Shown here: positions 1 to 62,805 of the stretch, piece by piece
Layout of the letters: the number at the start of each line of letters is the position of its first letter
How positions within the stretch are numbered: the first letter of the stretch is position 1
From: Morchella semilibera
Lineage: Eukaryota; Ascomycota; Pezizomycetes; Pezizales; Morchellaceae
Assembly: GCA_009192285.1 (NCBI GenBank)
Contig: WBVU01000011.1
Location: 1,298,668 to 1,362,667, forward strand
DNA: 64,000 nucleotides
Direction of reading: 5' to 3'
Notes under the pieces: model-generated
Told to the model about the DNA's origin: nothing
Databases searched by the model: none
The model's input: the letters and a program-made list of their open reading frames with translations, nothing else
Translations under genes and position numbers: made by a program

Positions 1-2246
1 AACGACTAGAACAAGTAATTTCAGTGTCAATATGAGTGTCCTCTGAGACGAATTAATGCGGTACTACATAAGTAAATGCTCAATTATTTATATCAAAGCT
101 TATGAAAATTCCCCACGGGTGATGAAACACTTGCTGCTGGCAGACCATGTACATTATTGGCACATTTACTGCGCGCCCTTATATATATGGTGTGGTAAAT
201 GTGTCAAAAGTAATTTTGCCAACGGTGGTGAAAATAATACCAACATTTATACCTTAAAATGGATAAAAGCACAGACTTTTGGCCAGAGAGAGAGAGAGAG
301 GAATTCAATATAATAAACATTTTTGTGCCACGCGGTGGGGAGAACACATTCACCACTGGTGGGCAGGTAATTTTACCAACCTCGGTGGGAGCTTATAAGT
401 GTGGCATTAATCCTTGAAATATTCACAAATGTAGCGCATAAAAGACTGAAACTTTAGCATTTATACGGCACAAAGACTGAAATTCAGCACTAATACCACC
501 GGTGGTAAATAGTTTATCAACCGTTGGTGAAATTACTTTTGACACGTTTACCGCTCCATACTTATATACATGTATATATAAAACATGCAATGTATCTACA
601 TGTATTATACATGTACCCCGCCCAAAAAATGTCCACAATGAAACCCTATGTGATCGATATATACATGTACAGCCGCTCTGCAAAAGTGTTCGTGGTTCCG
701 ATTTTGGGGCGAGGCATTTCCCCACCAAAAACCCTAAGACCACACTTTCCCAGTGACTAATAGCACCTAGAATTAATAAAGGGTAAGATCATAACCTGCC
801 TTCTTTTATATGAACTATATATTGGCATTATATAGCCCCTTTTGGCCAAAATATCTGTGTTTTTATCCATTTTAACGTATAAATACTGGTATCATGTTCA
901 CCACCGTTCGTAAGATTGCTTTTGACACATTTACCGCACCATACACTTTTACTGAGGGGCTCTATATATATAAGCGGCCCAATGTTCTATTTAGCCAGCG
1001 ACGAGGAGCTTGAATGATTGTTGGATCTTATATATACATGTAATTATGATCATAAAGTTTATAGTTCGACAAAGCCGTTAAAGTAGATTTCAACGCAACG
1101 TCCTGTTCCCCGCGAATTGATAGTTGAGATATAGAATCGAACGTTTTTTTTTTCGTTAAGGGATAGGATAAGATCATAGATATATTCAACGGACGAAGAG
1201 GACTTGTGGGGATACGACTGAGTTTGATCAAGGTCTTGACACTCATTTTCAAGAACCCAAGAAAAATACATCTACTGACCTACCACCAGTGTCCGAATGA
1301 TTATTGTTGAAATACAAGGCCTCTGGCTGTTGTTTCTGGCTGATTCTTGTGTGTTATATAAGAAATGGTTTTTTTATGAGGTTTTACTTCGTGACGATGA
1401 TCTATAGCCAGCTGCAGGCGCTGGGCGTAAGAGACATTCGCGAAATCTCTCTCATGCATGGAGGTCATGTGATCGTCAACTTTTGCTGTAAAATATGTAC
1501 ATATGCCCGGGTAAGTCGTCGCATTACCTTGCATCAAAAAAAAAGAAAGAAAAAAAAGCCAGATCGAACTGGTTTGGAATATTCCTATTGTACTCATAGT
1601 GCCAGAATTGAAATTCCGCCGATCAACCCCAATTAAGTATCATTTGGTGGTAGAACATTACAAGTAAGCGGCATTTTAATTTTGGCAGAGTGAGTACTAT
1701 AGGGATACATGCACAAAAGGATCTCATGCCTTGGTTACTTGAGTGTTTATATATTTGTTAAAGTGTAGGTGGAATATGCGAGGTATTATAAGTTTGTGCA
1801 GGGGCACAGTGAACCAATCAGCCAACAAATTAGGGGATAGCCTACGGGCTGAGCACAGTTAGTGAATCAAACAAAACCAAAATTAAAAGAGAAGTATGCT
1901 TATTGAAGCGAGTGATATGTTATGACTCGTAGAAACATTGAATTGAACTTATTTAACCGACTTAGATTTAGATAACCACTTTTTTTTGTAAACTCCTACC
2001 ATAACCCGATTTACTTTTCAGAGGAATACATTTAAATGTACTTTTGTCATCATACTAATTCATGATCGGATCGTAAATGAGACAATTATCTAAACACAAA
2101 TAACGAACTAAGAGACAATAGGGGGGTGGGGGTGGGGGATAGAATATAATAAGAGGGAAACTGGGTTTAGGTCCCTCAGAAGTGCTTTCGTTAGGAAAAG
2201 AAGAAAAAAAGCCGTATTAATGTTCCTCCACAATCAAACTTTTATT
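1..2246. other. Gene-free left flank
   Basis: No protein family is recognisable in this AT-rich stretch. It holds the inverted-repeat element at 187-942, five copies of TACATGTA (567, 597, 608, 662, 1035), a short (GA)n run near 286-300, and G- and A-rich low-complexity tracts near 2120-2210. Possible ORFs around 1300-1640 and 423-760 overlap on both strands, have no family signature and run through low-complexity sequence, so I do not call them. Confidence 0.6.
187..942. repeat. Long-inverted-repeat non-autonomous element
   Basis: Positions 187-284 and the reverse complement of 844-942 match over about 98 bp, imperfectly but throughout: both read ATGGTGYGGTAAATGTGTC, then an AACGGTGGTGAA block, then AAAATGGATAAAA and CACAGA...TTTTGGCC. 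A third copy of the inner part of the arm lies inverted at about 505-562, again with the AACGGTTGGTGAAATTAC block. There is no coding capacity. This looks like a foldback or MITE-like DNA element with internal sub-repeats. I could not define a target-site duplication, so its superfamily is unknown. Confidence 0.6.
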
Positions 2247-5200
2247 TTATTGATGCCCATTGACTGGCATGCCGACAGTTGCAGCCATAGCATCAGCAGC
2301 CAACTTTTTTGCCTCAGCTTCGTGAACCACTCCCTTGATCACATTTTGTTCTTCTGGGCTCAGGCCCTTTGTAAGCCCTTCATAGATCTGAGGCTGCTGC
2401 TGTTGCAGTCCTGTAAAACAATCAGCAAAGGAAAGATCATCCAACTTAAGATGATGTTAAATACCTAACAGTGCGTTCCTGAACAATTGGTAGGGTTCAA
2501 TATTGTCCAAAGGAGTCTCCAAGAGAGTCTCCTCCTCAAGATCATCATCATCATCATCCCAATTAGCAGATAAAACACCCCGAGCAGATGCTTCATTGTT
2601 CAAAAACTCCATATATGCACTGCTCTCATCTGGGATGTCAAGCTCATCGGCTAAGAGTTTTTTTATCAGCGAATTACTCGGGAGGATTGAACATTAAAGA
2701 AGCGTACCATCCTCACCCTCCTTGCCCCATGCTGCCTCGCCTTCCCACTCGTTATCGCTGTCAGTTCCGTAAGAATCATCAAGTGTCAGACCCTCTTTCT
2801 GAATTTCCTCACGGTTCTTCATAGCCAAGGGCAGCGTCTGAAAGAGTGGTACGATCCCCTGCATCAGCTTCGGCCATCCAGGCTGGATACTCTGAGGAAT
2901 CTGGTCTGGCGTAAGTTGGATCAACGCCACAATTGCCACAATAGAAAGCTTCTTGTCGTGGACCCTATTAAAGTGCTCAATATTGGAAAACCAGAGGCTG
3001 AAGAACTTATTTGTCCAACCGTTCCTCTCGAGAATCTGTAAGGTAGCTGCAGGATTGTAGTAAATACAGTTAATAACCATTTCCATCAAATGGATACGAT
3101 ATGATTTGATCTCGTTAGGTGCTGTAAGGCATTGCATGGCAATCTCAACAAATTGAGGCAAGTATTGGTCAGCATGCCCCCGAAGATTTAGCATAACAGC
3201 CTCAGCCAGCTTGCACCCGCAAATGCGGTCCATGGCCCCTAGACGCTCGTTCGTAAAGATCTGGAAGTTTGTTAGAAGCGATAAATACTAGTTTAGTGGG
3301 ATTGATTACAGTTGAAATAATGTCGAACATTGCTGCTAAGTATGTAGGGTTTTGGATTAACATGTCGGAGCCATAGGAGATGTAGTTATCTAACGCGGGA
3401 AGCATCTCTTCAATGTATATTTCCGCACGGTCCTTGAAAGACTTGTGAATAAGCTCAAACACAGCCCACATGGTCCCTGATATTGCCTTAGCAGAGAAAG
3501 TGCAGCTGTCAATGATCTCAAAGACTTCGTTGTACAAGTCTGTTTGTTTCTTAGTAAAGGAGCCTGAGATAAAGGTCTTTTTGCACCTACCAAACAATTT
3601 ATGCTCCAGGGTGACAGTGATAACCGGGACAAGTACTTGCTCTAGTTGCAGAAGGACCCCGGGAGAGCTCTCTAAAGTCAAAATTAGGGTCCCGATAGTT
3701 TGCAATACCCCAAGAGCTGTGATGCTCTTGTCATCCAGATAGTTATCAACATCGTCATCAATAGAGTTAGCACCCTTATCAATGACATCTTGGATGATCC
3801 TAAGATAAGTATCCCTCTAAATGTTGTCAGACTTAGTAGCACAAAATAGAAGATGTGGTACCCACCAGTTGCTCCGTGAGCTGTACTGCAAATGGTGTCA
3901 ATTCTGAAGCAAAAACCTCAACAAACTCTTCCATAACATTGGAAAGTGCATCCACATCGACCTCATTAGCAAGCTGCAATAGTTTCTGCATGATATCCGC
4001 AATGCTTTGTTGCATGGACGTACGAATGAAATCGTGCCGAATTAAAGGTTGTAAGGCCAACGCAGCTTCAACCCGTACAGGGAGTTCAGCGTCGTTGAGA
4101 CATTGTAAGATGTTCTGGTAGATCACAACAACATTCTGAAAAGACAATTAGATCGGTATAGATCACTTGTGTAGATTGAACTTACATTCTCATCCCTAAA
4201 ATCAAGGTCGGAAAATTTCTCTAACACGTCGCACGCACGAGCTCGGAGAAATCCATGGCGGCTTCTAAATTCTGGGAAAACATGACGAACGAAGAAATAT
4301 TCCACCTGATCGGCAATTGGACTGCCCTTTCCAAGAATAATGGTAGACAAGGTCCCAATCATTCTTAAGGCACCTTCCTTTTCCCTGTAGTTCTTCTGTT
4401 CTTCTGGAGCTGCCTCATATCGATTGACCACCTCATTGATGAACTTAAGAACTGTAAATGTCTGCTTTCGGCGGGCCTTGCTAAGCGTGTTCAAGAAATT
4501 TGTGGCAGCAACATCTGGAGCTGATATTTCCTCGTATAAGTTGATTTTGCGGTTCAAGTATTCACCTGGGTCTGATTCGAAGGTCTCCAGGTCTTCGTCT
4601 GTTTGGCAAAGTAAGGGGAAGAGGACATGAGAGATTAAGTTCTCGACATGCGGGCTCAGGTGCTTCCATGTTGCTGATGGTTTGATGCTTTAAAGACTAC
4701 TTAGCTCGTTTCTTTATTTCTGTTAAAGGGAACAAACCACTCATCCATAAAAGTAATAGTGCATGAAAGGCAGATCTTGCTCAACCATGCCTGTTTTGAA
4801 ACCCACAACTCAATCTGCTGGAGGTATGCCTTGAGAATTTCTGGTGCAAAATGTTGGATAAAATGCTTAGAGAACTTCTCATAATTCTCCGAATTATTTG
4901 TGGTGATGCTTGTAGGATTCCCATATCTTTCAAAAATGAGAAAGGGATTTGGCAAAAAAAAAAAAAGAAAGGAAAAAAGAAGTGGAAACACAAGGGAGAA
5001 GAAAAACATACCTCACAAAAAGCCTATTAAGATTTGAGTAGGCCCACTTTTTGGCCTTCCACCATGGATGAGCCTCTCGATCTTCAATATCTTCAGGCAT
5101 AGACTCTGGCGGTGCTTGTTTCCCTACAACTTTGATAAATAAAGTTGCCCACGGGACAATTGAGGATTCCTCTCGAAGATGGGCCGCCAACTCAAACTAT

Positions 5201-6043: not shown

Positions 6044-6872
6044 GGCGTTTCCCTGATATCTTGTGTAGGGCAGAGTGGTGGGTTGTTTAGGGAGATGAGA
6101 AACAAGATTGGCTTATTGCGAGGAAAAAGATTTTCGAACGAAGGCCAGGGCGGGTGGGGGAGGTAAAGCCCAAGAGAAGATGGCACTTACTCGAAAGTGT
6201 GCAGAGAAGCGGCGGGGATGTGAAGAGAGGGGCAGTGGAGGGGCGAGGGGCACTCAAAGAAACCTCTTGAAGAAAAAAAGAGAGAGAGAGAGCGGAAAAA
6301 TGGTAAAAAAAGAAAGAAAAAAGATTGAGTGAAAAAGAAAAATACAAGCTAGTGATAAGTAGTGCTCGATAGGATATGTGTAGTGTGCGACTAGCTAACG
6401 ACCTTGTCAAGTGGAAAGGGAGTGGAGTAGGGTTGAGAAGCATCTTCTGATTATTTAAGAACGCTAGCCTCAAACCCTACATCAATTACATGTACTGAAG
6501 TCCATCAAGCTCTACTCCTGTCGCTACCCAACACGGCCGTCTCTGAATTAGGCATGTTACAGAGAATATTTCTTTACCATGCCATGCTATGCCGGCAACC
6601 ACTTCTTTCTTTTCTTCCTTTATGTCTACTCTAGCGGCTTCGCGGGGTAAAAAAAAAAAAAAATGAGCCTCCTGCATCGGGAACCTACACCAACACGATC
6701 TAAGCCTTGGCAAGATGGTACCTCAACATAAAACAGCATGTACTGAAGATGTTTTCTTTCCAACTTTAGTACGAAATTATGCATAATTCCTAATGTATAG
6801 CGAATGATACATGTTCTGATTTCCCTGCATGCCAAAAAAAAATGCTGCATATTTACTAGATTAAACATGTAG
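6044..6872. other. Spacer between importin gene and Ski2
   Basis: This 0.8-kb spacer must contain the importin promoter and the Ski2 3' end. It holds purine-rich tracts (6240-6350), an A-run at 6649-6663 and one TACATGTA at 6487. I see no gene. Confidence 0.5.
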
Positions 6873-11261: not shown

Positions 11262-11594
11262 CACTTCAAAGTATGGTGTTCCAAAACTGTCTAGCAGAAA
11301 TGTTGATGTCTGATTATACAAGCCCTCAGGCTGTCGCATATGTGCTGTGTGGGCTTACGTAACACAATAAGATACCCGTAGGTCAGTCGCAACACACCGG
11401 ATCCTTTGCTGTCCCGTACGAAATCCTGGGGGATTTTATTTTCTTACTGCAAAAACTCGCTATCCCGTACGAGACTCGGTGAATCTTGGCCATCCGGTAT
11501 AACGATGTGTGATCGTATTTACTTACATATGTACTTACATGTACTACTAGGTAAGATGTGCTCCGGTGTCAAGAGTAAGTGAGTAGACACCGTA

Positions 11595-11683
11595 GTACTA
11601 CGGTGTGAAGGGTAAGTGAGTAGAACTCGGCGGTGCGGTTTGCGTTGCTACGTTCTACTCACTTACCCTTCACACCGTAGTAC
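11595..11683. repeat. Foldback hairpin 1, perfect 32-bp arms
   Basis: Positions 11595-11626 (GTACTACGGTGTGAAGG...TAGAAC) are the exact reverse complement of 11652-11683, with a 25-nt loop. The left arm also starts inside a 16-bp palindrome, ACCGTAGTACTACGGT (11589-11604), and an imperfect direct copy of the arm (CGGTGTCAAGAGTAAGTGAG) precedes it at about 11563. The arms are identical, so either the hairpin is young or pairing is maintained. Confidence 0.9.
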
Positions 11684-12065
11684 ATACACTACATATAGAG
11701 TAGTAGGTACAGCTGTGTCCGGATGTCGCAAACTACGAACCACGAACCATGACCCCGCAACCCCACGATGACCACAAATCCCAGAATCAAAAGTTATAGG
11801 AGTGAGGATAGGAGGAGAGGAGAACTATTGTAACCCTTCCTGATATTTATTATCTAGCTCTATATATGTAGTCTTTTCTTGCTTCGTTCGTTGGTTCGTT
11901 GGTTCGTTCGTTGGTTGCCATGCGCGCGACATCCGGAAAATTATGGGACACGGCTGTACCTTAATATTGCTTTTCGCTTTGATATTACTAACTACATGTA
12001 ATTACTATTTGTCCATACGGTGAAATTAAGTATTGTCTCTCGCGGCCAGTGCGGTTGGGACAATA

Positions 12066-12781
12066 CTTAGGGCCCGTTTGGACAACCTTAGATTACTTCT
12101 TTGGACTATTGGGCAAATTGGATTATCAAAAAGCGAAAATGATAGTCATAATACATGTAATTATAATCAGTGGATAATCTACATATGGTGCGGCGCGTCT
12201 TAAAGGTGACATGCCGGCATTTTAGCTGGAACAATCTTGGCCACTCCAATTGGCTCTTGAGCCAATTGAAGCCTTATATTCCAGCCATATTATGGCTGAG
12301 AACTAATCTTGGTGCGGTTGGTGGGTAGGGGGTATAAATGGGTATGAATACTGTTCCACTTCACCAGGATCTGGGCGCTTTTTAGCAATACAAACAGGCC
12401 AATTTCAAATCTCTAATAACTTTTTAACAAGGGAAAATATCAAAAATCTGTCTGATAGAAGTATTCACCATCACTAGACCTACACTTCTGTCAGACAGAT
12501 TTTGAATATCATGTCTTAATAAAAAGTTATTAGCAACGGTATTTGCTGTCACCTTTAAGATGCGCCGCACCATACATGTCCAGATAATGTTGAAATAGGA
12601 TTAGGCCTTCAGGATATCTGTGCTGTGTGGGAATAATTACCTCCAGAGGTGATTATTTTCTTGGGATAATCGGGAGTTCCAAATGTTGGATTATTCAATT
12701 GCACAAACTGCCTAGATAATCCAAAAGTCGATAATCCATCGGATTATCGTAGATTATTGGGTTGTCCGAACGGGCCCCAAG
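12066..12781. mobile_element. MITE, GGGCCCGTTTGG family (copy 1, carries an insertion)
   Basis: The ends are inverted repeats: CTTAGGGCCCGTTTGGACAA at the left and, reverse-complemented, CTTGGGGCCCGTTCGGACAA at the right. Inner segments also pair (AGATTA... and GGATTATC motifs on both sides). There is no ORF. After removing the nested element at 12186-12572 the MITE is about 0.33 kb. Shorter relatives with the same terminus are at 22117-22203 and 40775-40871. Similar termini occur on hAT and PIF/Harbinger MITEs; no clear target duplication let me choose. Confidence 0.75.
12186..12572. mobile_element. MITE, TGGTGCGGCG family, nested (copy 1)
   Basis: This 387-bp element has terminal inverted repeats TGGTGCGGCGCGTCTTAAAG / (rc) TGGTGCGGCGCATCTTAAAG, continuing into GGTGACA, and is flanked by TA on both sides (12184-12185 and 12573-12574), as expected for Tc1/mariner-type insertion. 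It lies inside the GGGCCC MITE and so is younger than it. It encodes nothing. A related copy is at 12806-13088. Confidence 0.85.
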
Positions 12782-21907: not shown

Positions 21908-22606
21908 TACATGTAGTTACCATAAGGTGTAACAAAATACATGTATTTGAGTAGAGAACCCTGTTGCTAGGTATGGGGTTTCACCACTCAACTACAGTGC
22001 CTCAAAGTGTTTGTGATTCATATAAGATGGTCAGTGCTCGGTGTGGCTTGCAGAGTTGAATCAAAGAACTCAAATGTATCTATGATAGAATTATAGAAAC
22101 TTGATAACAGAGAATAAGAGCCCGTTTAGCAACCAGACAAAACGGTTGAAACGGGGTTAGCAAGGGTAGAAACCCCGTCTCGGCCTGCTGCCAAACGGGC
22201 CCTAAAAACACCATGAACATCTAATACTGATTTTGGCCACCATTAAGTACTGACTTGAGCCGAACATGTCATGACGTTACCGGACCCGACCACTATTGTA
22301 TGTACAAAAGAGGTAGCTAAGCCAACCGTCCGCTGCAACAAAAAGGAAAAGATCGACACAAAAAATATCAGCACCATACTCTGTTTACAGCTGTGCTCTT
22401 GCGGTTGCACATAGGATACCGTACCGGAGGCCTCTGTGGGCGGCGTTGGAAAGCATCATACCTACTATCTATGGCTAGCAGATGCTTATGTCCCTTTCTC
22501 AGCTTGGCCCAAACCCTACTAATGCAGAACAACACATTTGAATGGATACATTAATTATATACGTATATGTAATCGTATAGCATAAGGCATGTGTATTTTA
22601 TTTTGT
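21908..22606. other. Spacer between Tc1/mariner element and CSM3
   Basis: No gene is visible. The stretch holds two TACATGTA motifs (21908, 21938) and the small GGGCCC-family MITE at 22117-22203. It is presumably the 3' flank of CSM3. Confidence 0.5.
22117..22203. mobile_element. Small MITE, GGGCCCGTTTGG family (copy 2)
   Basis: The ends AGAGCCCGTTTAGCA and (rc) AGGGCCCGTTTGGCA are inverted repeats enclosing about 60 bp that itself contains the pair AACGGGGTT / AACCCCGT. It is non-coding. Confidence 0.65.
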
Positions 22607-36855: not shown

Positions 36856-37514
36856 ATGACAAGGATAATGGTATGGGTTAGGGTTTCTCGTGTTTTATAG
36901 AATAGCTCGAGGAGCTATTCAGTCGTTAATTAAAGAGTCGGAATTTTTGATAAGCGTTTGGTTGCAACGATATCCGACGACTTATAACGCGCGAGTACGG
37001 GGTGTTCTTAAATCAACCTATAAATGCCCCATATAACTAGCACCTAGGCTAACAGTGGTATTTCCCAAAAACTTCGAAGTTGGCACATATATGCCTCTAG
37101 GCCACAGCATGTGTGAGTATTCACGTGACTCTCCACGTCGAGTGACCAATTATGATTAAAGTGTGTCACACCACAATTTAACACAGTGAGCCACCATATT
37201 TAAGAAATCAACACTTTCAAATACAGTCATGTGCCCGCACTTATGATTGGGGGTTGCATGCAATAAATACATGTAGTCGTTCCTAGCCCATACTGTGGTG
37301 GTGGTGGTGGTGGTGGTGGTGACAGATACATAAGTAAGCTTTGGGATAACCCCCATCGGACTTTTTTGGAGAATCTGGACATTTAGCATAGCAACCAAGC
37401 AAAAAAAAAAAAAAAAAAAAGGACTGGTATAAACCCTTTGGGCTTCCGGTTTGTTAAATACTACCCCTGTATAATTTCAACCGCGAACCGGTTGGGTCTG
37501 GAAACGAGACATGT

Positions 37515-37615
37515 ATGTACTACGGGGGTAGGGGAAAGTCTCCAATGATTTCCACAGGCCATACATATGCATGTACATGTAGTTCTGGAGACTTTCCCCT
37601 ACCCCCGTAGTACAT
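37515..37615. repeat. Foldback hairpin 3, perfect 30-bp arms
   Basis: Positions 37515-37544 (ATGTACTACGGGGGTAGGGG...CTCCA) are the exact reverse complement of 37586-37615; the loop is 41 nt and contains TACATGTA. The arm shares the start GTACTACGG with hairpin 1 but then differs. Confidence 0.9.
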
Positions 37616-37774
37616 GCATCTACTATAAGCACATTCGAGTACTAGAGTTTGTCCCAGGTACATGTATTATCCCCTGGCCTGGTGATACAAGCAGATCCGA
37701 GACCTCTGACGCCCCAGGAGATTTATTTTCCTTCATTTAGAAATTGGTCTTCTAGCTACGGTCTTTCCAAATTA

Positions 37775-39912: not shown

Positions 39913-42063
39913 ATCGATATATCTCCAGCTTAACCTCTTTCCTGTAGTCAAGTGGCTAGGGCAGTGGCGTTTGCTTGTTTATAGGAAAAAAGGGTTTAAT
40001 AACGGTGGGGTATGTATTTTTCTGGGTGGGGTTGTTTTTTCCCACGTGCTCGTTGCCTCCTTCCAATTACCCGGTCTGGTGCCAAGATTTGAGGCTTAAA
40101 TCTTTAATTTCACTTCAGGGCTACATTAATTCACAAGTGTCTGGAACGATCTCCGGAGGATCGGGGGTTCTCGGAGAATGTTAACGGAACACAGCATACA
40201 TCAGTTACCGATGTTCGGAAGTCCCTCCCTCCATCTCACGGGTCAATGTTGTAGGTGATCCTCGATCCCTCTGAATCCCGATCTCTTTCCCGAAATATCG
40301 AGTTCGGAGGATCTACAAATACAAAATACATCATGTAATTACCTGCGGTTGGGTTCTTGGTTACTCGGGCCGGAAAAGCCTTTGGACACGGATGTCCGTC
40401 GCGTCATCGGTCGTCGTCAATTTGAAGCTCCCTTTTGGGGGGACCGTGTGGCTACTGGTTCTGATCCCACTCATAATAGAACGAACACAGATACCAGTCC
40501 CAGCAGAGCACGTACATGTAGTTGGCACAAAACACAATATCACCCAGGTATCATGATCAGTAAGAGTACTTCTTAGGTAAACAAAAATCGGCGTCCACTC
40601 AGGTGTTGTGAAATCGATGCTCATGCGAAAACAAAGTCGCAACACCTAATCTTAATCCAACCCGATAACAAGTACTAAACCAAAATTAATCAGTTCTAAA
40701 TAGTACTTGCGCTTTTGGTTGTGAACTTTGAGCGCTGAACCAAATGTTTTCTCCGCGGGTTGCGTTATAATTTAGGGCCCGTTTGGCAATAGGAGTTTTC
40801 ATCCGTTCCAACGACCTTTTTATTAGGCCTTGATCTTGGAAACTCCATTTTGTCTGGTTGCCAAACGGGCCTAGTAGTTTCATGGCCCTCACTGAACGCC
40901 AAAGCTTAGTACCTTCATTGATAAGTTGTAATCTCAGAATAATCCAAAGAACTCTTCAGTCTGAACCTAGCGTCGGAACTCGACCCTGTAAGGCTAGCCT
41001 AAGACTAATTCCAACCCCATCCCTTGCAGCAACCACCCGGGGACACAGCCATGAATAGATCTCACTTACTGGCACTAGTGTCTCGTACGAGTAATATCGA
41101 GTAATATACTCCGTAACTTCAGTGATGCTATAACATTCGACTAATGATGTGGTTGATCATGACCACAGGCAGTTCTTTCAAAGAGAATGAGGAACATTAA
41201 GATCGAGGCACGAACAGGAGGGTTTCTTGCATAGAATCGATGAGGCACCTCCGACCTACCAATCAGAACACCAAGTACCTACATGTATCAGGACTAATTA
41301 TAAGGTTTTTCCGAAAGCCAGCTCCATAATATCAATACTACATGTAAGCATAAGCACTGCAAGGCTAGAAACCGTTAGGTGAGGATCGACGACCTTATGT
41401 ACGTGTTCCGTGTGTTTGCTTGCTTGCTTGCACATCCGGTCGCTTGCTTACTTCGGCAGGCAGGGGGGGGGAGCTCCAGGGCCTATCATCAATGATGAGA
41501 AGACGCGTGCATACTTGTATCACCATTCTATTTAAGAGAGTACTCTAGAGTACATGTAGGTGCAAATGCTACAGTGAAGGGTAGAATTTACAGGGATCTA
41601 AAAAACGGGTTTAGGTGGCTGACTCGGCCAATTGGACTCTCCATATTTCTTCATCAAAGTTGTAGGTGCAAGGGGTATATCATATGGATGGATGTGCCCA
41701 GCCAGTCAGTAAGTCAGTTCAAGAGAGAATAAAAACGCGATATCCCGCCAACGCCTGTTTCTTATATCTACATGTATGTAGCATTGAGAAGAATTACCCC
41801 TTTCGTTTCGAAACATTTCTCCCTTGGTCTGCATGATACGCAGGTGTCATACAACATACATACATCATAACAATACATGTAGCTTTAGAGCTCCGTCTAA
41901 GACAATCAGGAGGATCAAAGACTCTTCTACCTATCTGTGCTAAGTAGTCCATCCATCACACAGTGCCTACTTACCCTACATACAACCACCACCACCCCTA
42001 TCATTCCCCTTAACATCATTCCCCTCCCCCACCCCACTGGTCCCGAATAATAATCCATTCACA
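39913..42063. other. Spacer between RanGAP and the 42-kb gene
   Basis: This 2.2-kb gene-free stretch shows a GATC/TCGGAG-rich patch (40140-40320) with local inverted pairs, the GGGCCC-family MITE at 40775-40871 and six TACATGTA motifs (40513, 41280, 41339, 41551, 41769, 41874). The last 0.3 kb before 42064 is CACC-rich and pyrimidine-rich and is probably promoter and 5' leader of the downstream gene. Confidence 0.5.
40775..40871. mobile_element. Small MITE, GGGCCCGTTTGG family (copy 3)
   Basis: The ends GGGCCCGTTTGGCAATAGGA and (rc) TAGGCCCGTTTGGCAACCAG are inverted repeats, with further internal pairing (GGAGTTTTCA / TTGGAAACTCC). It is about 97 bp, non-coding and related by terminus to 12066-12781 and 22117-22203. 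Confidence 0.75.
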
Positions 42064-42681
42064 ATGGCACCCAATGGAATTCCTCACCTTCAACTGCCCA
42101 CACTGGCTCCTTTAGAACCCCTCACTTCTGGCACTAACCTGCCCCACGTCCCCGCTGGAGAGCTGACCCCTACCGAGAACATCGCAAAAGACTCAAGGCC
42201 TCCACCAACGCCTACGTCTCTCGATGCCTCCACCACCACGCCGCCACAGTCCCCAGGACGTCCTACATCTATGCGTCGTTTTCTCTCTCGTGTTTCCTTG
42301 AACTCTTCATACACTCACGAAGACGATGACAAATCCTCCATTCTCTCAGGGCCCCTATCTCCAACAGCATCAGTCATGTCACGCGACAGTAAAAGAAAGG
42401 TTTCTGGCGGCAAGAAAGGATCATGGTGGAAAAAATCGAAGAAAGAAGATAAAACCCAGAACCTTCCTAGGCTTCCACCTGTCGCCGCCGCCGCAGCGAC
42501 TATGATTGCTGCTCAGGTTGCCGCCCCAGCTCATACCGAAAGCTCTCCGGGTAGCTCCCCCACAAACCTAACCCGCACAAGGACGGTACAATCCATTGCA
42601 CCACCACCGAGATTGCCGGACGATCTCTTTGATAGTGGGTTTTCGAGCTTGGATAGCGATATGTTCAAGAACTTCAAATAG
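42064..42681 (+). CDS. Uncharacterised Ser/Pro-rich fungal protein
   Basis: I do not recognise a named family. The single-exon 205-aa protein starts in good context (CACAATGGC). It is rich in Ser, Pro and Thr and looks disordered, with a basic patch MRRFLSRVSLNSSY (about residues 70-83), a Lys/Trp motif GSWWKKSKK (about 118-126), an Ala-rich segment (VAAAAATMIAAQVAA), and an end SGFSSLDSDMFKNFK. Short Ser/Pro-rich proteins with an RRFLS motif, a tryptophan/lysine patch and a terminal MFKNxK occur, as I recall, in other filamentous ascomycetes; this should be verified. A long 5' region with six TACATGTA precedes it. No function is assigned. Confidence 0.7.
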   Translation: MAPNGIPHLQLPTLAPLEPLTSGTNLPHVPAGELTPTENIAKDSRPPPTPTSLDASTTTPPQSPGRPTSMRRFLSRVSLNSSYTHEDDDKSSILSGPLSPTASVMSRDSKRKVSGGKKGSWWKKSKKEDKTQNLPRLPPVAAAAATMIAAQVAAPAHTESSPGSSPTNLTRTRTVQSIAPPPRLPDDLFDSGFSSLDSDMFKNFK

Positions 42682-44880
42682 AACATCAACGACAACGATA
42701 AGCGGGTACACGGGATTTCGAACCACGAGAAGTGGAGGCCTATTTCCTTGTTTTTTGTTCTTTTCTTTCTTTTTCTACAATATGTCCCCCCCCTATTTCT
42801 TCGTAATCGAAAAAAGGGAGCACAGTCAGTACTATCGTTGCCCTTGTTGAAGTGGTTTCAAGGTTTAGCGAATAGTTCATACGAAAGTTCTTGGACAAAT
42901 GGTCCTCTCTGCTGCGTTGCGTTCTCTCCTTTCTATATCTTTTTTTAAACAGCCTCGTTATTGCACCTCTTTTGAAAAGATCTTTTATCATTTAGCAGGG
43001 GTCGCGGAGAGAAATTTGCTTCTGGGGATATTGTGGGAAAATCGTCGGGTACGGCGTTCTCTCGGGGAATCGGCTTAGTTTTTTCTTTCTTTTCTTCCTC
43101 TTCTCCTTCTCCTTCTTCTCTTTATATATTCTTATCGGGCATGGTATGGAAGGGCAGTACTTTTCTTTTCTTTTACTTCTGTAAACACCTAATTATATAT
43201 TGCTTCCTCCTATAACGAAGGCTTATTTCCTACATTAGCTTCTGTTATTTGTTTATGATGAAGCATCGTCTCATTTTTCTGCTACTTATTATACTCCGTT
43301 CCTAAGCTGCATATCTAGTTTTATACCTTATCAGTCTTTTTTCCTTTTTTCTTTTTTTGTTTCTCACTTCGCTCTAATCACTTGACTCAGATTAGGTCCT
43401 TATATAACGGCTTGATTTGTTTGTATCACTTTATTTCCTATGGTCCGTACCCTCATTTACCTCTATTTAACCAATCAGATCATAAGAGGATACAAGGGCA
43501 GTCCTTTTGTACTCCATTGTTGTCTATAAGTTTAAATGACATTGCGATGTTTTATGTTCGTGAACCAGAAGGGGACTATACCGGTTAGGGTTATTCTAGA
43601 TGGGTACATATATTCAATGAAAGTTGCTAGCATGATCATTTCCGTTGATAACATAAGTACATGCAGGTGTGGCAAGGATGTGCTCCCAATGTTGCAACCA
43701 ATGCCGCTTTCATGGGACTGGCGAATCGGGTATTATTATTTCAGCCCAGGTCATGTAGGGCTTGTATTTTTTCAGAAGGTTGCGCCTACATTTGTCATTT
43801 ACAGATTGAACGCAACCTGAGTGTACCTTAAAAAGTGACGCGATTTATATGGCTATAGTTACATGTACATAGTTTTCCTATTGTCTTTGTTTTCGATCTG
43901 GCTGTACGGTCGAGTGATGTGTGGTGATTTCACCCATCGATACCAACCACACACCCACGAAGCGTCATCCTTCCTTAACTAGCTGACTAGAAAAGGGCGT
44001 TATTTATTTGTTGGGGGGTTGCTGTTATAAGAAAAACAATTCAACCTAAGGCCTTTTGACTTAGTGTTCGTCGCATGAATAATCACTCGCATACCTACCT
44101 CAATTGATAAAGGCGCAGTCGGAATCCATCCCTTGCTGCTCGGGAAATAAGCTTTGAGCCATGCACGATACTACATAGTGTCGCTCCGGTTATTCGTGAC
44201 ACAAGTTTGAAATCGACAATCAAATGGTACTATCACATGTATCAAATCCTAAGGTACGATACCCTAGAGTAGGTACACTCGCTCACTGGGTCTTCCTGTA
44301 ATGGCGGTCCACTGGGGTCTCAGACCGATAGTAGAGTTCACTCTGGTGCCGCCAGGTTCAATTATAATGCAGGAAACTACCAAACAGGAACCGCCTTTAG
44401 GTCATGGTCGGCTGTAGAGTAATGGGGTACCTACCTAAAGTACTCCCCATTTCACAACGTTTCGAAGATAACCCGAGGTTTGTGATATTTACCATTGCGT
44501 ATTTGAGGCTTTCAAATCAATTACTATAAAAATGCTGTGTTGGTAACTAAAAAAAAAGGTAGATAAACCAATTGCGGACTTCGAATCGAAAAGGGTTTAA
44601 TCAAGAAAAAAAAAAGTTATATATGACTTAAAAGAACACTCAGTTCTCTCACGGGAGAAAGCACTAGCAAAGCTCAGATAGAGCTAAAAGGTGAAACAAA
44701 ACTCCTGGTATCGGGAAACGTAGATGCAAAACCATTATTCTCCACTCCAATCGCTCCTAAATGCTAGAGAGAAATAAACAAACTTGGCATGGCCTCATAA
44801 TTTAAATGAGATACCACAGGCAAGAGAGTGAAGGGAGTGAACTCATTAGCTCTTTTGTATCAGACAGGGATGCCAATGAT
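42682..44880. other. Spacer between the 42-kb gene and ISN1
   Basis: No gene is recognised over 2.2 kb. The first kilobase is T/C-rich on the plus strand (TTTCTTTT runs near 42750-43350) and is probably the 3' region of the 42-kb gene. One TACATGTA lies at 43860. Around 44290-44350 a GC-richer patch (GGCGGTCCACTGGGGTCTCA, GGTGCCGCCAGG) shows partial inverted pairing. Small ORFs at 43382-43820 have no family signature. Confidence 0.5.
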
Positions 44881-46329: not shown

Positions 46330-47911
46330 TTTGAGGCTTCTAAACAGGGCAATGGATGGGTGCAGCAGCAAAGCTGTATACACGATAGTTATAGATGATT
46401 GTTTGATATTTGAAACCTTTATTTGGAGATCCTGAAGCATTAAGAAGGGGGGGGGGGGGGTCTGTGTTAAATACTATAGACGGATCCCCTTACACATGTG
46501 AACCTATTGAAACTGGTGACAGCTTTGCTCAGCTCCACTGCGTTTAGGTGCTGAGCAGTTTGAGAATGTGTATGTAGGACCCCGGTCAATGATGTGTAAG
46601 CGGTGTTATCTATGGCCTGGTAGGCGAAGAGGATGGAGATCATGAATGCAGTGTGCAGATGCGACAAATGACGGCACGGGCTCGAGGGACCTCTGGAACC
46701 TCCCCCGGGAAACCGACTGGTCCCGCCCGACAAGTTGATTCGCGGGTCACCGTCAGGGCGGAGGGACGCGTTGCATCCTTCACCAACGGCATGATCACGC
46801 GGTAACTGGATCTCACCTTCCCATAAAGTAGAAAGTCATGTGTCTAAGAATGAGTTCCTCTGTCTATCACCCCAACACGACAGTTAGTCTTTAACTATCG
46901 TTCCTATCCCTTGGATGAAATCGCCAAATCCGCAGCTTGCCTTTTTGATTAAGCAGGCAGCTAACAGCTGTTTTCGACGAATAATGAAAAGTCACCTATG
47001 ATTAATGGTTCAGGCCAGTTAGGTAAATTCACGCACAGAAAAGCTGCAGAGGTCGACTGCTCATAGAATATTTAGACACTTTTGTTGCTACATATGAGTT
47101 CAAACATGACCTATGGAAACAATCCTAGAAATACTGAACTCCTATTTATCAATAATTTGCTCATATTGTTGCTAGGAGGAATCATGGTGAAGTACATGTA
47201 ATAATAAAGCTTCGCCTCGGCTTGTACCGCGAGCAGTTCAATATCTGAACGCATTAGGTCTAGGATAAACGCTTATCGGTGCCCCGAAGTTTGAGAGCCA
47301 TGCTCTGCGGTTAGTAATTATCCTTTCCTAATATGAAGACTCTATCGTTACACCCTAACTCTGCGCATATCATATAACCCCTTGTTCCAAACACGCGTTT
47401 GACAGTGAGCTTCATAACCCCCCCCCGGGGTCCTACCTCATACGTGGGTAGGAAATAGGTATATGTACCTACATGTATTTGATGTTTTTGCTTACTCACC
47501 ATGCATTGAGTCAATTTACCCAATCATTATCAGCTCTGCGTTCTCTAATTTACAGATTGATATCCCAGTAATCTTTCGTGTTCGGATTCGCAAATGACCG
47601 TTTTCGGATTCGCATACCGCCCCTTTGCTGGAGGCTAGCTCGGGCCAATTGTCAAACTGCCACAGGCTTGGCTTCGGATAATTGAGTTTCCACCAAGGTA
47701 TTCCGGAGCTTAGCCGTAACAGACGATTTTTAGTTGCATTCAAGCCTCACCCCTTTTATCGTTGAACCTTTTAAATTTGTTCAACATCCACTTGTTGTTA
47801 TCTTTATTCTTCACCACCTTCACTCACTCACGACTATATCCTTCGATTTTCTGCTTCGTTATTTATCCAATTCAATACTCCCTTTAATTAACCTTCCGTA
47901 TCGAATTCGAA
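46330..47911. other. Divergent spacer ISN1-ERG6
   Basis: This 1.6-kb spacer serves two divergent genes. It holds a G14 run (46447-46460), two TACATGTA motifs (47193, 47470), two ACGCGT hexamers (46765, 47393) and, just before ERG6, a pyrimidine-rich leader (47750-47905). I see no gene. Confidence 0.5.
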
Positions 47912-49242
47912 ATGACCCCTGGCAGACTAGAGAATGAAGACCACAGCCGTGATGCTGCCTTTAACAAGGCAATGCACGGAAAGTCTTCAGAGCTGAAGGG
48001 TGGTTTCTCTGCCATGCTTGGAAAGGACAAAGAGGCCCAGAATGCGGCGGTTGATGAGTACTTCAAGTTCTGGGACGGGAAGGGTGCCGGGAAAGAAACC
48101 GAGCAAGATATGAAGGAACGTGTTGATAGCTATGCCACATTGACAAGACAGTATGTTCTTCCAATTTCGAAATAATCTGTAACGAATAAATGGTAGAGGA
48201 AATTCTTACATGTAACCCTAGTTACTACAATCTTGCCACAGATCTCTACGAGAATGGCTGGGGCCAATGCTTCCACTTCTGCCGTTTTTACGAGGGTGAG
48301 AACTTCTACCAGGCCATTGCCCGTCATGAGCACTACCTTGCCCACATGATGGGTCTCCGCGAAGGGATGACCGTCCTTGATGTTGGCTGTGGTGTTGGTG
48401 GACCTGCTAGGGAAATCACCAGGTTCTCAGGAGTCAACATTGTTGGATTGAACAACAATGATTACCAGATCGACCGTGCGACCAACTATGCCAAAATGGG
48501 CGGTTTGGCCGATAAGCACAAGTTTGTCAAGGGTGACTTCATGCAGATGTCGTTCGAGCCTAACACATTCGATGCCGTGTAAGTATTTACGCTATCGTCT
48601 CATGCCTGGAATAATAAACTAATGCCATACTCACAACTAAAAGCTACGCAATTGAGGCCACTGTCCATGCTCCTTCGCTTGAAGGTGTCTATGGCCAGAT
48701 CTACAAGGTCCTCAAGCCTGGTGGTGTTTTCGGTGTCTATGAATGGTTGATGACCGAAGACTACGATGCAACAAACCCCCGCCACCGTGAAATCTGCCAC
48801 GGAATTGAAGTTGGTGATGGTATTTCCCAAATGGTCAAGATATCTGAGGCCATCCGTGCTATCAAGGCTTGTGGATTTGAGTTAGAGTTCCACGAGGATC
48901 TCGCGCAGAGGCCTGATGTGATCCCATGGTGGTACCCGATTGGTAAGAAGCTTGATCCTTTTTTCACCGTAAACGCTGTAATTGACAGTTATTATAGCTG
49001 GTGATCTGAAATATGTTCGCTCGATGGGCGACTTCCTAACTGTTCTCCGCATGACCAAGGTTGGCCGTGGTCTCATGCACAAGTTTATCGGTGGTCTCGA
49101 AACCGTCGGTATTGCTCCTTCTGGTACACAGAAGACCGCCGATGCTCTTGCAGTGGCTGCGGACTCATTGGTGGCTGGTGCTAAGGAGAATCTATTCACT
49201 CCCATGTACCTGATGATTGCTAGGAAGCCCTTGAATGCTTAA
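47912..49242 (+). CDS. erg6: Sterol 24-C-methyltransferase Erg6
   Basis: Erg6 transfers a methyl group from S-adenosylmethionine to C-24 of the sterol side chain (zymosterol or lanosterol) in ergosterol synthesis, at the ER or lipid droplets. Four exons (47912-48150, 48222-48578, 48644-48942, 48998-49242) give 379 aa, the usual length. Family signatures: [14 protein letters not shown] (sterol-binding region), SAM motif [53 protein letters not shown], and the C-terminal [13 protein letters not shown]. The first intron (48151-48221) contains a TACATGTA. The pyrimidine-rich leader suggests strong expression. No sterol regulatory element is certain. Confidence 0.97.
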
Positions 49243-50004
49243 ATGTAATTTATGGGTTCGAAACCCCGGCAGCCAAGTAATTAGTTCTTCAGATGGTATA
49301 GGGATAGGGGTTTCGGGGAAAATTATACGTTTAGCTATGTAATCTAGTAATAATTTGATTTGGAGGAGTTTCTCGTGTATCTATTAGATCTTGTACATTT
49401 TTAAACCGAAAGCCGAAGTGAATTAAATTGGCCGTGTTGGCCTTTCGTACCGGATAAGGCCGGGATTTCGATAACGATTTGCTGTAATAGGAGGATTAGC
49501 CTCCGCCAATCTGTACATGTAGTTCTAAGGACTAAAATCGAGTGCATGTACTTTATTTATTAAGCCATTATGAGCCTATAGTTCAAAACATTAGATTGCT
49601 CTCAACGCATACCTTGTTCACATACTTATGCACATGGAGGGGTAGTGAATGATTCTCAGTACATGTATATAAATTCAAGTACATGTACTAGATATACCTA
49701 CTTCAAATCTGCATTGTCAGACTACATATGTACATACATATAGCTCAAGTTTGTGGGACATTCTTTCAGCTTATATGATTCTATTATAGAATATGGCTCG
49801 CCAGAATTAGGTACTATATAAGATTGTAATCGCAATGATTAGGAAGGGTAATTCCCCTGATATTCCCGCAGCGTATCTCTTACATCAAACACTAAGCTGT
49901 GATATACGCATGACAAAAAATTCTCGCTTTTTGTATCATCTTAGCCCTAACTAGCAGTACAAGCCGATCTATGTAGTATTGCCCAACCCGTCTATCCTAA
50001 TCAT
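49243..50004. other. Convergent 3' spacer ERG6-ZUO1
   Basis: Two genes converge on this 0.76-kb stretch, so it should hold only 3' ends. It nevertheless carries three TACATGTA motifs (49514, 49660, 49680), which argues against the motif being purely a promoter element. No gene. Confidence 0.5.
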
Positions 50005-51506: not shown

Positions 51507-52032
51507 CTTTATTATCGATGGTTGCTTTGGACTGAAATATATGGTAGGGTATACAAAATGTTGAAGAACTTCTCGGACGAGGGGTTGCGGGTTGTACGTG
51601 GGCGGAAAATAAAAACCTTTATTAGTGTGGTGGCCCACTAGTGGGTGCGAGTGTTATCACGTGTGGCTGTGTGTTGTGTTTAGCGAGCTAAGGCTAAAGA
51701 TTGTTAAAATTTATACATTTTCGGTGGACCGGCTTCGGCGTATCAGTATTTATCTCTTGCCTTTTACCAGAGATAACCATGCGTACGAGCACTAGCGGTC
51801 CCTAAATAATCTTTGGAAACCCTCAGCGAAAGCGATGCTCGTTCGAACCCTGCTCCTTTCACTATTTTATTTTTGCTACAATGTCTTGGCGTTCTCAAGT
51901 TCGGTATCTGCACCCTGCAGGGCGGGGAGTCCCGTGTGCTACCCATCCAGGTGACTATGTACCTGAAGGCAGCTCTACTCTACAGATAAAGGGACAAACC
52001 TCCCACCCGAAACCATCCTCACAACAAGCACC
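51507..52032. other. Divergent promoter region ZUO1 / metallophosphatase
   Basis: This 0.5-kb spacer separates two divergent start codons. It has a CACGTG near 51659 and CCCAC/GTGGG text near 51633-51646. A GTTCGAACC motif near 51841 looked tRNA-like but has no matching stem (see rejected items). Confidence 0.5.
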
Positions 52033-53969
52033 ATGAAGAAAGTTCATTTGTTACTCCCCGTGTTGGTACAGTTTGCGACAGCTATACAACCTTCTGCGCG
52101 CGACCCACTGCCTAACCAGCAATTCCGCGATCTGAAATGGGGGCAACTTAACTTCTTGCACACTACCGATAAGTCAGCTTCTTCGTCTCCTTAAGATAGC
52201 TATCTCTTAAAAACTAACGCAAATAACAGCCACGGTTGGCATGCAGGGCATCTTCAGGAACCGCAGTACTCGGCTGATTTCGGGGACTACATCTCGTTTG
52301 TTAAGCATATGCGGCGGCTCGCTGACGATAAGGGGGCAGATCTTGTAGTGGTCGACACTGGCGACCGTGCTGAGGGTAAGGAAGCGACCGTTCAACCTCT
52401 CTGACAGGGATTAGAGCTATAACTTATTGCCCGCGTTTCTTGATTATAGGCAACGGTTTATGGGATGCGTCGGATCCAAAGGGGAACTACACAAGGAACT
52501 TCTACCATAAGCTCGACATAGATGTCCTCACGAATGGTAATCACGAGCTGTACAATAAAACTACAGCCCAGAATGAGTACGATGAGATGATCCCATATTA
52601 TAACGGGAAATACGTCGCGTCAAACGTTGATATCGACGTAGAAGGAAGGTGGGAGCCTTTTGCAAACCGGTCCCACAAGCTAGTCACGAAAAACTTGGGG
52701 TTGAAAATTACGTCTTTTGGTTTTCTTTTTAACTTTACTGGAAACTACAACAACACTCGCGTTAAGGCTCCCAGTGAAGTTATCAAAGAAGATTGGTTCC
52801 ATGAGGCCATTTCTGACAAGGATGTTGACCTGTTCATGGTTATCGGGCACATCGATGTTGAGGACCGCGAACTCAGCAGAGTCCTGGCGGCTATTCGGGA
52901 GATAAATCCGGATACCCCAGTTCAGATATTTGGGGGCCACAGCCATCTCAGGAAGTTTGTTCAGTACGATCCCAAGTCAACCGCGCTTGAGTCTGGACGT
53001 TATTTCGAGACTATTGGGTTTCTGAGTATTGATGGCCTTGTGACGAAGGCAAAGAAAGCTGCGTCAAAACTGAACTTCTTTAGAAGATACATCGATGCAA
53101 ACAGAGCTGGATATCAACACCATACCGGGACAAATGAAGACACCTTTGATACCCCCGAAGGCCTACAGATGTCAGCAGAGCTCACCCAGTACCGTGCAGA
53201 ATTGGGCCTTGACCGTCTCATTGGCTGTGCTCCTCAAGATTGGTCCCTCAACAAGGACATGTATGGTAGTCCTAATAACTGGTATACCTTCCTCGAGGAA
53301 ACTGTTCTTCCAAAGGTTGTCATCAACGAAGACCGCCGAGATATCCCACGTATAATCTTTATAAATACTGGTTCTCAGCGATTTGATGTCTTCAAGGGCC
53401 CATTTACATATGATACTAGCTTCCTTGTTTCTCCATTCACCAGCAAGTTCCAGTTTACCCCGAATGTGCCATGGGAATATGCCTCACAGCTCCGTGAATA
53501 TTTTGAAAGCGACTCGGACCCGTACTTCCACGCCCTCGGTGTCCCCGAACGTGAAGGCCCGCGACCACAAACCTACAAATCAAATTCTTTCCGGGTGAAC
53601 CAGAGGCAGCGGAATTTCCTCTCCAACAATGATCATCCACCAACCATAGTCCCAGGGTATACCACCAGAGACGATTTTGGCGATGATGGCGACGACACAG
53701 TCCACTCCCAGGTCATTTGGCACTTCTCCCCTAAGGTCATTCAGGGGAATGCTTCTTTCCCCGATGACTGGGAGACTAGCCCTCCCGAGACCGTGGATGT
53801 AGTGTTTATGGATTTCATTGGGTGGAATGTTGCAGCAGGATTGAACGAGCTTTCAGGGAAAGATTCGTACAAAGCTGTTGATTTCCAACCCTACATGGGC
53901 GAGGAAGATACCATGACAAAGTTGTTGTTGGATTATATAGAGAAGGAATGGCGACATGATTGTGTTTAA
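52033..53969 (+). CDS. Secreted 5'-nucleotidase-like metallophosphatase
   Basis: This is a calcineurin-like metallophosphatase of the 5'-nucleotidase/UshA type, closest to the fungal group containing yeast YHR202W, whose substrate is not established. Three exons (52033-52172, 52230-52375, 52450-53969) give 601 aa. Residues 1 to about 17 (MKKVHLLLPVLVQFATA) form a signal peptide, so it is secreted or vacuolar. Metal-ligand motifs: FLHTTDNHGWH (DxH, built across intron 1), VVVDTGDRAEGNG, TNGNHELY, VIGHIDVED and FGGHSHLRKF. Several N-glycosylation sequons occur (NYTRN, NRSHK, NFTGN). The C-terminal half has the family's VDFQPYMGEEDT region. It ends with RHDCV and has no GPI-type hydrophobic tail. 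Confidence 0.88.
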
Positions 53970-54687
53970 GCTTTTAGGTTTAGGGTTATGTTCTTGGGCG
54001 ATCTGTAATGTTTTATGCGTGCTGCTTTATATTCGGATGTACCAGCAATACTTTGTATACATGCAAACTCTGATATGTCGAATTGTATATCTTTATACGT
54101 GTATATCCCGCGCGGGTTAGCAACATATAGCGATTCCTGTTTTTCCGGGCAAAAAAGATCATCCAAGAGTTAATGGTCTTTCTAGTTCACAGGCCAGCCT
54201 TAATAGTATTGTTTTTGGAGTGTCGAAAGTTCAAGATCGGAGGGGCCCAGTACGTGTAGTTAGAGGCCACGCCAAAGGGCAACGCCATACAGTGGCCCTG
54301 AAAATGTTTGAGTGAAAGAGGGAAGAATGGGGGGCAGCCTGGATTATAGCCGAGCTAAGAATACCTTCTAAGCGCACGTATTCTCGATTAAACAAATGAT
54401 ATCCCCCCTAAGGGTCTGCTGCCTACGAAAAATCACCGTGGTAGCTCTTATTTTAAGGCATATATATGTAGGGAATAGTATACTGGGCCTCGATATACGA
54501 TTAATGAATCAACAACAGAGAGCTGCATGTACCTACATGTAGTTTGGCACATTGGAGTCGAATCATAATCCATGACGCACCCAAACTCCAGGTTAATGGC
54601 AATGACCAAGTTGTCAGTTTTTTTTCTTCCCTAAATCTACTTTGGCGCCCTAAGGTATTAGCAAGACGTCTATATACACAGTAAACC
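53970..54687. other. Convergent 3' spacer
   Basis: This 0.7-kb spacer between two convergent genes holds no gene. One TACATGTA at 54534 (reading TACATGTAGTTTGG). ORFs here are short and lack a family. Confidence 0.5.
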
Positions 54688-61705: not shown

Positions 61706-61755
61706 TTCTTTCTTTCTTTCTTTCTTTCTTTTCTTTTCTTTCTTTCTTTTTTCTT
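61706..61755. repeat. CTTT microsatellite in the b561 promoter
   Basis: Pure then imperfect (TTTC)n/(TTTTC)n lies 55-105 bp upstream of the b561-gene start codon. On the gene strand it is a purine (GAAA) tract. Confidence 0.85.
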
Positions 61756-62268: not shown

Positions 62269-62410
62269 AGTACTCGGGGCAGGTAAATAGTACCGGACAA
62301 TGCAAGTTTTGTCTCTGGGCTTTTTTTGCAGTAGTTCTCGCCTAGTACGCGCACCCATTGGTGAACCAAAAACCTCTATTGTCCGGTACTTTTTACCTGC
62401 CCCGAGTACT
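62269..62410. repeat. Foldback hairpin 4, 33-bp arms
   Basis: Positions 62269-62301 (AGTACTCGGGGCAGGTAAAT...GACAAT) pair with 62378-62410 with one mismatch; the loop is 76 nt. A TACATGTA lies 7 bp beyond the right arm. Confidence 0.9.
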
Positions 62411-62805
62411 ATAGGGTACATGTATGTACCTACATAGAGCACTCTACTCTAGAGTACATAATGGTAGGGTATGCAGTACTGGCTGCGATGATGATGTTGT
62501 TGATGATGGTGACGAATTGGTGAATTGGTGAATTGTTATTGTTGTTGCCGTGGAGAATGTTATATTCTACTTTATAACCGCATATATACATACATGTAGC
62601 TACGTAGACCCTGAGGTGCTCTCTGACAAGGCCCCACTGTCGGAACATACATGTACATGTAGAGTATGTACCTACATGTACTCTATATTGGGATTACCCA
62701 CCTCCCCCATGAATTTCATGATGCTCGAGAAATACATACTTATCTACACATTCCCAGCTGGGTGTAAAAAACATGTCTGAATGTGCGTTAACTACATGTA
62801 CATCT

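Follow-up and report, generated by a model that had tools for sequence, protein, structure and literature searches.

The palindromic octamer TACATGTA is strongly over-represented in the non-coding DNA of the morel Morchella semilibera, and the chances are about even that it is the selected recognition site of an abundant, as yet putative, sequence-specific DNA-binding protein. The word was analysed in a stretch of 64,000 nucleotides (the window; C10:1298668-1362667, where C10 is contig WBVU01000011.1), and its abundance, sharpness, symmetry, non-coding location, mild upstream bias and clustering are read directly from the DNA. Whole-genome counts refer to the 56.76-Mb assembly (23 contigs). 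The finer comparisons refer to a 324-kb sample composed of the window, 200 kb around it on the same contig and 60 kb of contig C1. Gene models were produced by our own hidden Markov model gene finder trained on this sample and comprise 78 genes with about 471 introns (median intron 64 bp). A stricter gene set of 61 models was obtained by dropping the 17 weak ones.

The window contains 34 exact copies of TACATGTA, whereas Markov models of orders 1, 2 and 3 expect 0.8, 1.3 and 1.8. The resulting excess of about 43- to 19-fold brackets the 30-fold figure of the original prediction, whose hand-made list of copies proved complete and exact at all 34 starts. Orders 4-6 expect 4.6, 15.8 and 30.1 copies in the window and 35, 94 and 177 in the 324-kb sample, but such orders absorb the word itself. 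TACATGTA is the commonest palindrome of the window and its top 8-mer by order-3 z-score (33.7), the runners-up being CCCCCCCC (22.5) and AAAAAAAA (19.9). The sample holds 207 copies against 4.8, 7.8 and 13.2 expected at orders 1, 2 and 3, and the word ranks first among the 256 palindromes by the ratio of observed to expected counts. Other AT-rich palindromes are not equally enriched in these 324 kb: the next highest counts among the 15 palindromes listed are those of TATATATA (83) and ATATATAT (75), and ATGTACAT occurs 36 times. Genome-wide, 22,206 copies are found versus 3,723 for the word in reverse. Such whole-genome counts are somewhat inflated, since two nuclear haplotypes or duplicated contigs seem to be present in the assembly (C9/C10, C12/C13, C21/C22). 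Hits come in pairs at similar coordinates for C12/C13 and C21/C22, while C9 and C10 are 100% identical across the 3.5 kb compared, and their comparison there is uninformative on TACATGTA.

The copies of the window, placed by exact match and by our own gene models, are listed below. The palindrome has no strand; a strand is given for the copies extended by GTT, which read TACATGTAGTT on the plus strand and AACTACATGTA where they lie on the minus strand.

567..574, TACATGTA, spacer, between the arms of the wide inverted repeat 186-943
597..604, TACATGTA, spacer, between the arms of the same repeat
608..615, TACATGTA, spacer, between the arms of the same repeat
662..669, TACATGTA, spacer, between the arms of the same repeat
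1035..1042, TACATGTA, spacer
6487..6494, TACATGTA, tandem spacer
11536..11543, TACATGTA, divergent spacer
11990..12000, minus strand, extended form AACTACATGTA (core at 11993), divergent spacer
12152..12159, TACATGTA, 24 bp outside the inverted-repeat element 12184-12574
21908..21918, plus strand, extended copy TACATGTAGTT
21938..21945, TACATGTA, spacer
37268..37275, TACATGTA, spacer
37574..37584, plus strand, extended copy TACATGTAGTT, loop of the inverted-repeat element 37515-37615
37659..37666, TACATGTA, spacer
40513..40523, plus strand, extended copy TACATGTAGTT, divergent spacer
41280..41287, TACATGTA, divergent spacer
41339..41346, TACATGTA, divergent spacer
41551..41558, TACATGTA, divergent spacer
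41769..41776, TACATGTA, divergent spacer
41874..41881, TACATGTA, divergent spacer
43860..43867, TACATGTA, convergent spacer
47193..47200, TACATGTA, across the boundary of a mini-exon whose prediction is doubtful; probably spacer
47470..47477, TACATGTA, divergent spacer
48207..48214, TACATGTA, intron 48151-48221 of the sterol methyltransferase gene (Pfam support)
49514..49524, plus strand, extended copy TACATGTAGTT, convergent spacer
49660..49667, TACATGTA, convergent spacer
49680..49687, TACATGTA, convergent spacer
54534..54544, plus strand, extended copy TACATGTAGTT, convergent spacer
62417..62424, TACATGTA, 6 bp from the end of the inverted-repeat element 62269-62410
62591..62598, TACATGTA, spacer
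62648..62655, TACATGTA, overlaps the copy at 62654 (together TACATGTACATGTA)
62654..62661, TACATGTA, overlaps the copy at 62648
62673..62680, TACATGTA, spacer
62790..62800, minus strand, extended form AACTACATGTA (core at 62793), 5 bp from the inverted-repeat element 62806-62933

According to these models, 32 of the 34 copies are in spacers, one is in an intron and one is at an exon edge (47193); the mini-exon at the latter is doubtful, and this copy is therefore probably also in a spacer. The intron copy at 48207 was correctly placed from the outset.

The word is sharply specific. The 207 kb of non-coding DNA in the sample contain 202 copies, 33-fold over an order-2 background, and the one-base transversion variants, when pooled, stay near background (94 vs 80.4 expected). 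The symmetric double variants AACATGTT, CACATGTG, TGCATGCA, TACCGGTA and TACGCGTA are likewise at background. Two other symmetric variants exceed their expectation: TATATATA is common as a simple repeat (13 expected), and TACTAGTA occurs 8 times versus 3.8 expected. The distance between the half-sites is equally strict. TAC and GTA separated by two bases occur 274 times, 202 of them as TACATGTA, against 55-123 at the other gaps within 0-7, and an altered spacing abolishes the excess. By our own estimate, long-term neutral decay would leave single-substitution relatives about as numerous as the intact copies. Few one-base relatives exist beyond the background of alternating sequence, and the sites are consequently maintained or recent: the small halo of decayed copies fits this and not a long neutral accumulation.

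The flank preference of the copies spans about 5 bp, with less than 0.04 bit per position beyond +5. In the sample A is rare at +1 (11%), T reaches 62% at +3 and A 50% at +4. The extended form TACATGTAGTT is found 2,771 times genome-wide versus 22 for its reversed control. On the other hand, the symmetric extended form AACTACATGTAGTT was seen 43 times, below the approximately 86 that independent flanks would give by our own arithmetic. The longer palindrome was accordingly rejected as the true motif; the core palindrome has 8 bases and its extension is one-sided. Reading both strands raises the number of extended copies in the window from the five first reported to seven, the copies at 11993 and 62793 being on the minus strand. 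The direction of TACATGTAGTT relative to genes has no pattern by eye in 26 sample copies, without a statistical test.

The copies cluster, as had been noticed in the window: 26 pairs lie within 25 bp of each other in the sample versus 4.9 expected, about five-fold, and 8 of these are overlapping copies. The double form TACATGTACATGTA occurs 8 times in the 324 kb. Genome-wide, 1,033 pairs have gaps of 192-222 and 1,078 have gaps of 132-162, about four times the number given by uniform placing (approximately 269, own arithmetic). A nucleosome-scale spacing was considered on account of a bump at 200-250 bp in the sample, yet it was rejected since these two genome-wide classes are about equal.

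Spacers carry 1.07 copies/kb (181 copies vs 4-15 expected) and introns 0.55 copies/kb (21 vs about 0.9 expected). In the 117 kb of predicted coding sequence (CDS) three copies lie wholly within, that is 0.03/kb, where about one is expected from CDS composition. The statement that the palindrome avoids coding exons is accordingly narrowed to a lack of enrichment in CDS. Among spacers shorter than 3 kb the density decreases from divergent (1.74/kb) to tandem (1.32) and convergent (0.80), the poorest spacer class. The difference between divergent and convergent spacers of this size is significant in a spacer-level permutation (p 0.011; stricter gene set p 0.015). The first kb upstream of genes has 1.40 copies/kb versus 0.80/kb downstream, and in 30 of the 61 models of the stricter set a copy is present no more than 1.5 kb upstream.

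These positions also bear on an RNA-level 3'-end signal (UGUA/PUF-type or polyadenylation efficiency element), which would be palindromic to serve convergent genes on both strands. The word does carry UGUA on both strands and some copies lie in convergent spacers, but no non-coding class is poorer than the 200 bp that follow stop codons, which have 3 copies in 14.4 kb (0.21/kb) against 0.99/kb in the 200 bp that precede ATG. Of the spacers, the convergent ones have the fewest copies per kb, and the half-site ATGTA is enriched merely 1.7-fold with TACATGTA included (1,439 vs 861 expected). Such a signal is therefore very improbable. As a separate observation, the sample has a surplus of GTACCTAC / GTAGGTA words too (GTACCTAC 57 vs 9.5 expected). 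The GTAGGTA profile resembles that of TACATGTA in being spacer-rich and 3'-poor, and these words are perhaps a second related element.

The preferred explanation would operate as follows. The putative protein would bind double-stranded TACATGTA, probably as a dimer given the two-fold symmetry of the site. Selection would keep the sites throughout non-coding DNA, where they amount to 207 copies per 78 predicted genes in the sample and would be densest a few hundred bp upstream of genes. Binding, to single sites or small clusters, would keep stretches accessible or mark them, and the protein would act as a general regulatory or chromatin-organising factor in many spacers and introns. We infer the protein binding, the dimer state, the selective maintenance of the sites and the effect of binding from the properties of the word. 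The four causes initially proposed were a widely bound protein, a replication or chromatin landmark, a repeat-seeding motif and mutational bias. Of these, the widely bound protein is the best supported, while mutational bias is weakened because the word is so sharply specific.

Several observations weigh against the binding-protein explanation. The one-base comparison, in which transversions behaved as background, gave a different result for transitions: these are raised when pooled (129 vs 42.9 expected in the non-coding sample), with TGCATGTA 4.4-fold, TATATGTA 3.2-fold, CACATGTA 2.2-fold and TACGTGTA 1.9-fold up, and one transversion, TACTTGTA, is 2.0-fold up (p 0.003). In counts over the whole genome TGCATGTA exceeds its reversed control about two-fold (5,179 vs 2,668), but the enrichment of TATATGTA was discarded since its count is close to that of its control (7,802 vs 7,487). 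The density of copies is still 1.03/kb at more than 2 kb from any predicted gene, so the link to promoters is weak. When spacers of every size are included, divergent and convergent ones differ with p 0.046 for all genes and 0.15 for the stricter set. Alternating pyrimidine-purine octamers are in general excess (median ratio 1.4, pooled 2.2). Finally, no candidate for the binding protein emerged, and the one TALE homeodomain gene found in the genome is not of the Iroquois type. With regard to the genes, the upstream surplus, the 3' deficit and the even distant density together indicate a feature of all non-coding DNA and not a promoter-only element. The earlier remark that a simple promoter role does not fit is hence borne out far from genes, although an upstream bias is present.

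The alternation raises a mutational or structural origin, with less probability than the binding protein but more than any other alternative cause. Non-coding DNA would tend towards alternating or TACA/TGTA-type tracts through slippage or biased repair, and TACATGTA would be the peak of this tendency. The word consists of four flexible pyrimidine-purine steps (TA, CA, TG, TA), and motif refinement by expectation-maximisation drifted to a generic alternating tract, for which reason the tests of alternation were made. Non-coding DNA has an excess of alternating runs of at least 14 bases, 108 where one simulated sequence gives 17; masking TACATGTA leaves 54. CDS shows no such excess (1 vs 4 simulated). 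All transition variants keep the alternation, and the most strongly enriched one-base variants are among them. The copies spread evenly in non-coding DNA, also far from genes. Of the 202 non-coding copies, 71 are in alternating runs of at least 14 bases and 77 in runs of 8-9. The flanks often hold further TAC/GTA or CATGTA units, the double copies TACATGTACATGTA count here too, and the flanks of tract copies favour additional TGTA, TATA or CATG units. Probably such tracts also explain why some non-self flank match exists for 51 of 207 copies versus 12 of 207 random controls.

On the other hand, the median ratio of the other alternating octamers is far from the 33 of TACATGTA, and TGCATGCA, CACATGTG and TACGCGTA, equally alternating and symmetric, lack enrichment. 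Slippage would be expected to leave decayed variants behind as a halo. Isolated copies, with an alternating run of at most 10 and no second copy within 20 bp, account for 84 of the 207; they have G at +1 in 40% and T at +2 in 53%, a preference that follows in part from defining isolation by the break of alternation. The alternating-tract tendency is real, but it seems too weak and unspecific for a 33-fold enrichment of a single word.

The window contains MITE-like (miniature inverted-repeat transposable element-like) inverted-repeat elements at 186-943, 11564-11683, 12184-12574, 37515-37615, 62269-62410 and 62806-62933. Segments dispersed over many contigs are found at 402-560, 816-943, 62300-62410 and 62806-62900. 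A further segment of about 100 bp, at 40766-40873, has matches on many contigs and overlaps no TACATGTA. That the copies are members of one dispersed repeat family is nevertheless hardly credible. Some copies do lie beside or inside MITE-like elements, and the loops of inverted-repeat pairs, 2,795 bp in all, contain five (37574, 567, 597, 608 and 662). The copy at 12152 had been assigned to such an element but lies outside it. Matches to the element 62300-62410 continue across the copy at 62417 in 4 of 29 scored, and matches to the element from 62806 continue across the copy at 62793 in 1 of 9 scored. Against this, the arms of the 25 inverted-repeat pairs (1,411 bp) hold no copy, and among the matches listed none runs wholly across the copy at 567. 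In the stretch 40400-43900, which has seven copies, dispersed matches cover only about bases 367-474 of that stretch, with 40 of 83 candidates scored. The information in the flanks is gone within about 5 bp. Within the 324-kb sample and eight short loci, a paralogue spanning the motif exists for 5 of 207 copies and for 2 of 207 random controls, which speaks against an origin in one repeat family. An association with MITE-like elements, first noticed in the window, was dropped as well: with the window included, 7 of the 19 elements lie no more than 60 bp from a copy (2.1 expected, p 0.004), but outside it the numbers are 2 of 11 versus 1.1, and the result was not replicated.

The same elements suggest that the copies could be excision footprints of TA-targeting DNA transposons in Tc1 style, in which an element with CA..TG ends leaves TA-CA-TG-TA, that is, the same eight bases. 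For C. elegans, TACATGTA has been described as a footprint that Tc1 excision leaves rarely (PMC3520976). Matches to the DDE_3 transposase family (69 rows) occur in the morel genome, as do inverted-repeat elements flanked by TA, with CAG..CTG ends at 3 of 14 boundary calls. The 2-nt form for CT..AG ends, TACTAGTA, is above expectation, and the scarcity in CDS would follow from selection. The top TA-N3-TA words, TACTCTA and TACAGTA, may be 3-nt footprints. These two occur 85 times vs 37.5 and 61 times vs 38.8 expected in non-coding DNA of the sample, and they agree with the trinucleotides at the ends of local TA elements (CTC..GAG and CAG..CTG).

The flanks, however, are unlike those at extant TA insertions. 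Of the insertion flanks, 17 of 28 have C at +1, compared with 110 of 414 TACATGTA flanks (p 0.0003); for G at +4 the numbers are 12 of 28 and 72 of 414 (p 0.002). The comparison uses 14 insertions, of which at least one boundary (c10 11152) looks mis-set. Little decayed halo is seen, TACTAGTA is outside the ten top TA-N4-TA words, and the very high copy number would require more than 20,000 identical excisions. The 7 alignments available for the 5 copies with a spanning paralogue contain no clean 6-base gain on TA; one has a 5-base gap. On these grounds it is improbable that the copies of TACATGTA arose by excision, including excision of the MITE-like elements found in this DNA.

Other features of the window are as follows. 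Three gene models have Pfam support: a protein with an importin N-terminal domain, the sterol methyltransferase and a zuotin-like DnaJ protein. The protein encoded at 52500-53969 has its best match in Morchella sextelata (92% identity), and the next named matches are in Tuber, Sphaerosporella and Choiromyces (55-57% identity). A U5 spliceosomal RNA gene lies at 51725-51836 on the plus strand (Rfam RF00020, 59.9 bits). No TACATGTA occurs between 12152 and 21908, a stretch with an open reading frame (15214-15828) that is integrase-like in our own reading. The original prediction, which described its chromovirus as free of copies, gave no coordinates for it.

The yeast general regulatory factors Reb1, Abf1, Rap1 and Cbf1 have many sharp spacer sites and are thought to keep DNA accessible. 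The morel sites are likewise sharp and numerous in spacers, but they have another sequence and their density persists far from genes. An identical octamer is the abundant palindrome known in Phytophthora as motif-1 or M93, in the available parts of two accounts (PMC3520976, PMC3597505), and the exact word is also present in a further Phytophthora paper (PMC6165875). Motif-1 is reported upstream of 12,070 Phytophthora genes, and a homodimeric factor has been suggested (PMC3520976). It is an upstream element correlated with up-regulation at the infection stage, and the suggested factor is unproven in those accounts (PMC3520976, PMC3597505). The oomycete motif is thus an upstream element, whereas the morel copies pervade spacers and introns with a mild upstream bias.

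The preferred site of the Iroquois (Irx) TALE homeodomain is, according to the same available text, the same palindromic consensus (PMC3520976). A Homeobox_KN search of the morel genome returned one TALE gene (two PF05920 rows), with WFINARRR, and no Irx-type candidate, though divergent homeodomains could be missed. Irx shares the site, but its homeodomain has Ala where the only Homeobox_KN gene found in the morel has Ile in WFINARRR. Several fungal papers contain the letters of TACATGTA once, inside longer strings. Among the openly readable literature matches listed, no title or start of an abstract reports the word in a fungus, and within that scope the fungal case, which exceeds 20,000 copies and is not confined to promoters, seems not to have been described.

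A bolder reading is tentative and held to be rather unlikely. In it, TACATGTA would serve morels as a chromatin landmark across the genome, and a fungal architectural protein not yet described would bind it and organise accessibility, pairing or replication. The approximately 20,000 identical palindromes would then stand about once in every kb of non-coding DNA, whatever the distance to genes, and the abundance in Phytophthora would reflect convergent use of one site by unrelated lineages.

If a protein does read TACATGTA, a single factor would bind upstream of roughly half of all genes in a cultivated, little-studied fungal class, the Pezizomycetes. As the site is known to the base, such a factor, if real, should be easy to pull down. 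If the cause is mutational instead, an unusually word-specific mutational process would be involved, which would itself be a surprise. The existence of the protein, on the other hand, would provide a handle on the organisation of spacer chromatin in filamentous fungi outside the yeast models.

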